This document shows, piece after piece, positions 101 to 3,100 of a DNA stretch of 64,000 bases (the first letter of the stretch is position 1; the number at the start of each line of letters is the position of its first letter). The stretch is taken from assembly GCF_000003815.2 (NCBI RefSeq), contig NC_049991.1:16122971-16186970 (forward strand), in the 5' to 3' direction. The notes under the pieces are model-generated. The model was not told the origin of the DNA. It saw nothing but the letters and a program-made list of their open reading frames with translations, and made no database searches. Made by a program: the position numbers and the translations under genes. The stretch comes from Branchiostoma floridae (taxonomy: Eukaryota > Chordata > Leptocardii > Amphioxiformes > Branchiostomatidae).

Positions 101-3100
101 ATCAGAGACTAGACTTATGTAAAAAGAATCCTGACGACAACGACAATATCAGGGGCCAAGTAGTAGGTGAGTCAATTGCTACATAAGGCATACCTGAATA
201 TACTGAAAAGATAGTGATGATATAGTAAAATCAATTGTATTTCTGGAAGTGGTTTTCAAGTGTATTGATAGAACTTATAGAAGTAAGTGATAATGTTTTG
301 TCATAAAATTAACTTTCACATGTGGTATTAAATAATTTCTAGTATTATGTTGGGATCTACAAGAAGGTTTAATGATTGTTGTAATATTTTGATAGTTTGT
401 TGTAATGTTATGATGTTGATAGTTTGTTTTGCACTTGTGTATTTACTAATACATTGGTGTTTGTCACATTTGTGCCTCCAGGAATGCTGAAACCACAGTC
501 TTTGATTTACAGTGTGTATATATTTGTCCAAGTGCTAAGAGTAAGAGAGGATGTGTGCAAGTGCTACAGCACTTCTGTCCCTCTAAGTTTGAAGCCAATG
601 TAGACCTACCTGTACCTGTACACAGTCAGGTGTGACGAGTTGTTGACCCTATGAAATGTGTTACCATCCACAGTGAGTATAATGGCCCGAGATGGTTCGG
701 GGTTGGGGGACAGAAGTGCAGTAGTGGACCACACAGGGATGCTTTCCACTAGGTCGGTATTCAAAAGAGACAGTTAATTAAAACACATGCACAACTAGCG
801 GTACTTTTTCCACTGCTCCAGTGAGTCTTATGTCGCGAGACAGAGGGATAGGGGATAGAAGTGCGGTTGTTGACCACAGAGGGATCCCAACTGCCGTGTG
901 TTTAGATGCCAACGAGCTTCCAGAGGGGTAAGTTGTGCTGTCGTGTGGTTGCACTCATATGAAGCTGTCCGAGATGAAAGTGTGCGGCATAAAACATCAC
1001 ATGTCTGAGCACTTCTGTTGCCAGTTGTGTCATCGGACACATTAGTACTGTGAGCTGTTGTGTTCTGTCCTATGTATATTTATCCCCGAAAATAATTTCA
1101 TCAGGTTGGTAGATCATAGGATATAGGAGTTTTCTTTTACACAACCTAAGCTAAGGTGAGATTAACTGGTAAAAGAAAACTCCTATATCCTATATATATT
1201 TATGTGTATATACATATATGTAACCCAATTGTCTTGAGATGAAATAAATAGATACGTAGATGAAATACATGGTTAAAAAGATCATTAAAATCTGGTACAT
1301 AATACTAAAAAGTTCTGAGTCTTATAATAATTACTAAGCACAGATTTCTATTGGTACACTTTCCCTCTGAAATTTTCTCTCTGGTACGGAACTCTCTCTA
1401 TAAAACAGCCTGTATTTGATTTTTCTGTAAAGATTTTGATGTTGGAATTTCTAAAAGACATTCTTCTGTGTATTTAAAGTCTTGCTCCACGACAACTAAG
1501 TTATTGGTCAACATAAAATCACAGCAGAGAAAGGAGAGTATATGTGCCAGACATGTATTGTTGTAATTATCAAAGAGACAGCTTTCACTGGTCTGGAGTG
1601 AATTGATTCCCCTGAGTCATTAGTCCTGTTACCAGATAAGATTGGGAAATTTGATATGGAGAAGTTGAATCAGAGACAAATTGGATTCTCTGGGGATGAT
1701 CATTTCCACTGTGTATACACGGTGATGTAATAATGGTTTGTAATGGGGCTAGAGGCAGTACGTTTAGCTATTAGACACCAGGAACATATGTACAGCATAT
1801 GTAGGTGATAAATGACAGATTTTGGCAGTCCCACCGTCACCATACATGTGATTTTCAATAAGAAGACTAGTTTAATCTCAAAATGTATGGAAATGTTTCA
1901 CATGTAAATCCAATCCTACTCCCCCAAAGTGAAACTCAGTGAAAGAGATTGGTCGTAAGTTAAATCTTTTTATTTGACCCTACAGCATAACCTAAGGTCC
2001 TCGTTTGTGATGTCACAAGTGTCAATGTAATGATCTGTTATGGCCAAAATACAATATAGACATTTAGTACACAACAGTGATGGGTCTGAAGTGAGGATTT
2101 ACCTGGTTTAGCATTACTCTAAACCCTTCAATAAAAGCCTGTAGGATCTGTGGTTGAGCAGTGATGAGAAGTACCTTCACGGAAGTTGACTCAAAAGGCT
2201 ACTTTTTTGTGTATCATTCTCTTTAGCTTTAAAGGATGGCCAGGTATTGTGTTGAGCATTTTATGTAATGTGAGATTCAAAAGGCCTGCTAACATTGGTA
2301 ACATGAGGCAGCTGAAGCTAAAGACAGAGAGAATTATATATCTAAACCATAGGTACCTGGCCTTTGGAATACAACAATAGGATAAAATGAAAAAATGTTG
2401 CATAAAAGTCCCAAAGATTATGAAATGCTGCAAGATAAGATTTCTCAATGATCAAAATATGGTTGAATTTTTGTTGCTTTAATTTTTAAAAGCTAAAATA
2501 CCCTTATGAGGACGCTTGTTGTCTATTGTTTTGAGAGAGAGACTCTTTTCTGTGACACAAATGACCGTCTCAGCAACAGGCTTGTTTTAAATGATGATTC
2601 AGTGAATACACTGCTGTAGAGCAGATAACATGTTGGTGTGTGTTGTAGAAAAGAAGATGTCTTTGGTCTGTGTTGAGATAATGACATGTTTTTGGTGTGT
2701 GTTGTTGTGTTGTGTCCCCGCAAGAAAAGATAACATGTTTTGGGTCTGTGGAGAGGAGATGACATGTTCTTGAACTAGTTGAACTGTAAATTCCAACACA
2801 AAAATTGTACTCACCCAAATTTTCAACTAAACAGCACCAGTCTTTGTCAAGGAATGAAAATTTGAGTGAGCCCAATTTTGCGTTGAAATTTACAGTTTAA
2901 CTAGTTCAAGAATGACTTCTACCAACACAGATGAACTTTCAAGTTGAGGTGACATGTTTTGGTTTGTGTAGAGGAGATGACATGTTTTTTGTTTGTGTAG
3001 AGGAGATGACATGTTTTTTGTTTGTGTAGAGGAGATGACATGTTTTTGTTTGTGTCGTTGTGTCCCCACAGTTGGGAAGAGAGAAGAACGTCGTCAGGAC

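Follow-up and report, generated by a model that had tools for sequence, protein, structure and literature searches.

The window, the 64,000-nucleotide stretch of the Branchiostoma floridae genome (contig NC_049991.1) analysed here, carries at its start, on the + strand, a Smurf gene. A 14-exon model with hand-set boundaries (exon 1, B, C and onward to position 11206) is open over 647 amino acids. Pfam finds WW1, WW2, WW3 and then HECT in this order, HECT being matched in three exon frames, and WW1–3 are by eye near WW1–3 of human SMURF2 as these are given in Table 2 of PMC7133736. By its domain content the gene is a three-WW Smurf, a ligase of the NEDD4-type HECT class. The exon 1 stretch matches residues 105–131 of the SMURF2 C2 chain 2jqz, so that the last C2 exon alone was matched. 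When a 95-amino-acid query covering the linker and WW1 was searched against the assembly (513,431,437 bases in 431 contigs), the hits were three exons of the Smurf gene itself plus a single weak WW match at another site (45% identity, 3.1e-4), and Smurf therefore looks single copy. The exons that frame the region of interest are as follows:

101..166, + strand: exon 1, which precedes the A/B pair and has a phase 1 end; judged against SMURF2, it closes the C2 region
3072..3155, + strand: exon C, carrying the remainder of WW1; 84 nt, symmetric, with phase 2 at both ends
3579..3856, + strand: exon D, the WW1–WW2 spacer with a glutamine tract, and the start of WW2
4256..4340, + strand: exon E, rest of WW2; Pfam WW at 32.6 bits on the open frame
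6009..6167, + strand: exon F, WW3; Pfam WW at 45.2 bits on the open frame

The glutamine-rich tract of the exon D spacer occupies 3660–3760. Exon C is flanked by tandem repeats, with a 29-nt unit in 3.9 copies before it (2946–3055) and a 58-nt unit in 3.1 copies after it (3183–3362).

Between exon 1 and exon C lie two related exons, A and B, with a short intron between them:

674..752, + strand: exon A, 79 nt, upstream duplicate of the C2–WW1 linker exon; phase 1 to phase 2, donor gtcggt
753..821, + strand: A–B intron, 69 nt, whose sole YTNAY motif has its A at 777
822..927, + strand: exon B, 106 nt, the C2–WW1 linker exon; phase 1 to phase 2, ending in LPEG, the start of WW1

The original prediction had described this pair, and retranslation with a phase check reproduced the coordinates, peptides and phases that it gave for both exons. 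It had also called the two peptides near-matching, and their homology does go beyond chance. The nucleotide alignment of A and B comprises 67 columns, starting exactly at both acceptors, and its local score of 32.5 compares with 8.4 ± 1.6 in shuffles, none of 2000 scoring as high; tblastn likewise places exon A onto B with E=9e-7 (about 32 kb searched). This likeness holds for the first 67 of A's 79 nt and breaks down at A's 3′ end, for the exon tails (741–780 against the LPEG-coding 889–927) show no likeness, with a score of 5.0 that was matched by 1607 of 2000 shuffles. The upstream flanks (600–673 against 753–821) show none either (score 6.0, matched by 90% of shuffles), and wider and trimmed upstream stretches scored 8.0, which 690 and 387 of 2000 shuffles matched.

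Searched against the whole assembly with E up to 10, the A peptide matched two places, exon A (2.5e-15) and exon B (0.038). Other origins of the likeness and a larger exon cluster were considered and rejected. Further exon copies nearby did not appear in the tblastn search over about 32 kb, where the A query gives A and B alone below E 0.2; the 221 bases around A had their self-match alone (E up to 1, very common words skipped), which argues against a dispersed repeat; and the 15 differences between A and B over 63 codon-aligned bases, together with one 3-nt indel, argue against a haplotype or assembly duplication. On our reading, to which we give about an even chance, exon A arose by tandem duplication of exon B, or of its 5′ part at the least, and has been kept as an alternative exon whose use is probably minor or restricted. 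A duplicate exon is unsurprising in itself; an actively used one would be less common. According to PMC9013439, about 10% of animal genes have tandemly duplicated exons, and some of the unannotated ones may be expressed, and the tally in PMC9741552 is 236 annotated substitutions of tandem duplicated exons in human, which are termed rare there. A literature search on amphioxus Smurf and mutually exclusive exons, extended to Smurf1/Smurf2 isoforms, NEDD4-family evolution and Smurf2 WW1 autoinhibition, gave among the titles listed none on the A/B pair, which, being a judgement by titles, is no proof of absence, and a search for the human C2–WW1 linker among PDB chains gave one unrelated match (E 0.96).

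A serious rival to the retained-exon reading, possible though in our view not probable, is that exon A is a decaying, non-functional relic, rarely or never spliced, whose 3′ part and original donor were lost or never duplicated and whose gtcggt is a chance cryptic donor. The splice sites favor it. When 15 exons were scored with position matrices not fitted to amphioxus, the donor (AG/gtcggt, 0.44) and the acceptor (0.78) of exon A were both the lowest, the 14 other exons having donors of 2.17–8.66 and acceptors of 1.71–8.21. The original prediction had singled out the donor of A as weak, which agrees with these scores, and had credited both exons with good acceptors, which is true of B (5.2) and untrue of A. 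On the same matrices, the donor of exon 1 (gtgagt) scores 6.91 and the sites of exon C are fairly weak (acceptor 1.71, donor 2.43). Of the 226 GTs and 178 AGs in the surrounding intron, about 10% have scores equal to or above those of A's sites, and we estimate, from a density of 0.84 per 100 nt, that an in-phase donor as good as A's would occur by chance in the tail with a probability of order 0.1. Weak sites on both sides of the exon fit regulated low use or decay alike. A relic would also be in keeping with the lack of homology between A's 3′ end and the LPEG part of B and with residue changes in A such as RDR to RDG. Against it, the frame of A is open and free of stops, its sole indel is an in-frame one of 3 nt, and its donor is phase-matched.

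The pattern of differences between the exons bears on the same question. Over 21 aligned codons, A and B differ at codon positions 1, 2 and 3 in 4, 1 and 10 cases, a third-position excess that speaks against decay; five codons differ synonymously only, six change the residue, and there is the one 3-nt indel. Tested against a null in which A evolves neutrally and B is held fixed at positions 1 and 2, the pattern gives a signed likelihood ratio of 3.41 and a one-sided bootstrap p of 0.0515 (0.037–0.053 under other branch lengths). When the three final codons of A, beyond the end of the local alignment, are counted too, the differences become 6, 2 and 13 over 24 codons and p becomes 0.042. The codon test on constraint is borderline, and to that extent it leaves room for a relic.

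Simulations were also run of a tandem duplication of a 148-nt unit (four breakpoints, three indel rates and nine branch lengths, with 250 runs per cell), taking as the target pattern an exon part that is alike together with an exon tail and upstream flank that are unalike. At the best branch length, a neutral A gave this pattern in 0.8–4.4% of runs, and an A evolving under constraint, at 0.3 or 0.15 times the neutral rate, gave it in 12.8–34.8%. Constraint is favored about 6- to 33-fold across breakpoints and indel rates, the high end resting on 2 of 250 neutral runs, and under the stated model a neutral relic is disfavored to the same degree. The model assumes that the flanks were duplicated with the exon and that a constrained exon has no indels (the real pair has one of 3 nt), and it ignores gene conversion; the simulation carries less weight if the duplication left the flanks out. 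The exon parts could also have stayed alike through gene conversion between A and B. As far as the comparison of the two exons goes, there is moderate reason to think that exon A has been maintained.

Mutually exclusive use of tandem-duplicated exons is familiar from alpha-tropomyosin, among other genes. For the Smurf pair, six exon chains were translated through exon F. The chains 1-B-C, 1-A-C, 1-A-D and 1-B-D are open; 1-A-B-C meets a stop at amino acid 59, and 1-C, with neither A nor B, at amino acid 35. Since the chain with both exons and the chain with neither stop early, the frame requires one of the pair and one only, which bears out the earlier claim that the phases permit A or B singly and that the two combined break the frame. 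The 1-A-D chain stays open through every later exon of the 14-exon model.

The A–B intron itself may add a second barrier. It measures 69 nt, compared with 317–2144 nt for the 12 other introns in the hand-set model, and the branch-point-like A of its YTNAY motif stands 24 nt after the donor of A and 45 nt before the acceptor of B. For OGDH, PMC7969005 places the branch points 25–41 nt from the donor, closer than a steric limit proposed at about 50 nt, and sees in this what makes exons 4a and 4b exclusive. The 69-nt intron would, by analogy, probably block the joining of A to B sterically. OGDH 4a/4b and the human and fly sets described in PMC9741552 resemble A and B in being adjacent homologues of equal phase with a frame that admits one only, and OGDH (PMC7969005) also shares the very short intron and the branch-point-like motif near the 5′ splice site. 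Unlike the tandem exclusive exons known from these sources, exon A is shorter than its partner (79 versus 106 nt), has a 3′ end without homology and has weak splice sites, and the use of A and B as an exclusive pair is a prediction.

The same frames allow another use of exon A, as a poison or brake exon whose splicing together with B would cause a frameshift and nonsense-mediated decay and so lower Smurf levels. We consider this improbable. The A-plus-B chain does stop at amino acid 59 of the tested stretch with more exons downstream, as such an exon should; but joining A to B needs the 69-nt intron, whose sole YTNAY, 24 nt from the donor, falls under the roughly 50-nt threshold proposed in PMC7969005, and a poison exon would have no need for its amino acids to be preserved.

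An inverted-repeat scan of 101–3160 gave nine pairs, one of which joins an element in the intron upstream of A to the core of exon A:

564..581, + strand: candidate docking element, intronic, complementary to the core of A and less well to that of B
707..724, + strand: exon A core, codons for GDRSAV, complementary to 564–581

With 564–581, the core of A forms 17 of 18 Watson–Crick pairs and that of B 15 of 18 plus one G-U, the short-duplex energies being −36.7 and −28.2 kcal/mol, respectively. Among 400 of 1234 control pieces of 507 nt, the best 18-mer reached 15/18 for A (in 7 pieces); for B the maximum was 14, and when 12 other exons were each compared with the 507 nt upstream of them, none went above 13/18. 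The gapped score was equalled by 3 of the 1234 control pieces, which overlap, for A and by 21 for B. In the long-duplex comparison, the energy of A with the upstream intron was equalled by none of 400 shuffles, which supports this pairing, and by 7 of 198 natural pieces, a comparison in which the support is weak; that of B gave no support, being equalled by 34 of 400 shuffles and 124 of 198 natural pieces. According to PMC6071210, it has been proposed that duplication of one stem arm along with an exon leads to competing pairings and to mutually exclusive splicing. As in the Dscam-type docking and selector structures treated there, one intronic element would pair with either exon copy; unlike in those clusters, the complement lies inside exons rather than introns, and there are two copies only. 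Having been found post hoc, with modest statistics and mixed controls, 564–581 is put forward as a lead only for a docking-type element.

That the likeness of A and B was kept by gene conversion or by this RNA pairing, rather than by selection on the peptide, is improbable. For it, the A core exceeds its controls and the other exons, and B exceeds its controls' maximum of 14; against it, control and natural pieces equal the gapped scores and long-duplex energies as often as given above, and all three A/B differences within the 18-mer are synonymous, with two of them weakening the pairing of B, so that the peptide has been kept better than the pairing.

What an A isoform would look like depends on the exon to which A is joined. 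Pfam scores WW1 at 40.1 bits in the B-C chain and at 32.4 in A-C (cutoff 26.9), and finds none in A-D. The A-C stretch is nine residues shorter and its WW1 starts LSTSW instead of LPEGW. As a Pfam WW control we used the WW2 fragment in exon E, which is without its own LPEGY start; since this fragment also scores 32.6 bits, the Pfam score cannot tell whether the A-C domain folds, and the original prediction may be right that an A isoform would have a shortened WW1. Among the predicted A chains, only A-D would certainly be without WW1. The further claim that A could lead to a two-WW form is not established: the A-D chain, which has no WW1, would fit it, and A-C keeps a WW match above the Pfam cutoff. 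Exon C (84 nt, phase 2 to 2) could be skipped with the frame kept, so an in-frame omission of WW1 would be possible without exon A too. The accompanying statement that SMURF1 has two WW domains and SMURF2 three is correct according to PMC7133736.

A review, PMC7358609, citing Ruetalo 2019, describes WW1 of human Smurf2 as binding the C2–WW1 linker and strengthening autoinhibition. As exon A alters this linker, a less autoinhibited ligase is the natural prediction, and we infer by this analogy that such would be its effect.

The best reading of the locus, with its chances about evenly balanced, is that exon A is a retained, probably minor, mutually exclusive exon that changes the C2–WW1 linker. 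The transcript would take up exactly one of A or B, after the C2 exon and ahead of the WW exons. The short A–B intron would bar A-to-B joining through a steric clash of donor and branch point, and a product with both exons or with neither would carry a frameshift and an early stop and be a target of nonsense-mediated decay. Inclusion of B would give the full C2–WW1 linker and the intact LPEGW start of WW1; A joined to C would give the altered WW1 that starts LSTSW and, if C were skipped as well, a two-WW protein. Inclusion of A would make the ligase less autoinhibited. The homology, the phases, the stops, the length of the A–B intron and the lack of a further copy in the searches are observations; in this scheme we infer the inclusion of A in mRNA, the steric exclusion, the decay of mis-spliced products and the effect on activity.

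If exon A is used, exon choice could let a single invertebrate gene tune the C2–WW1 linker of a ligase that controls TGF-beta/BMP signaling, in a segment that according to the review (PMC7358609) is part of human Smurf2 autoinhibition. Whether alternative splicing came before the split of SMURF1 and SMURF2 in vertebrates could then be tested directly. A dead exon A would be an ordinary duplicate. Smurf1 and Smurf2 are taken in PMC2837046 as products of a vertebrate-specific duplication, which makes a splicing switch before that duplication conceivable. With its three WW domains the B form is like SMURF2, and the predicted 1-A-D form, with two, is like SMURF1; unlike in vertebrates, with their two genes, alternative exons of a single gene would be responsible, and the splicing of A to D is a frame-compatible possibility. 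The boldest version of this idea, which we regard as unlikely, is that the single amphioxus Smurf gene makes both types, an autoinhibited three-WW form with B and C and a less inhibited two-WW form through A-D, that the pairing of 564–581 sets the choice, and that the vertebrate pair took over an older switch.

Several other features were observed in the window. The B–C intron holds two long hairpin-forming inverted repeats, at 1116–1193 and 2767–2912 (25 nt at 100% and 37 nt at 92%), which are perhaps remnants of small mobile elements. Farther downstream, 19083–21734 is a tandem array of 182-nt units in about 14.5 copies, and a shorter array at 18031–18756 has four 183-nt units, with a consensus start that is the reverse complement of that of the 182-nt array. 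On the − strand, two open frames at 45764–48633 match glycosyl hydrolase family 1 (Pfam PF00232), and an open frame at 57074–57418 has a Pfam DUF4515 match.
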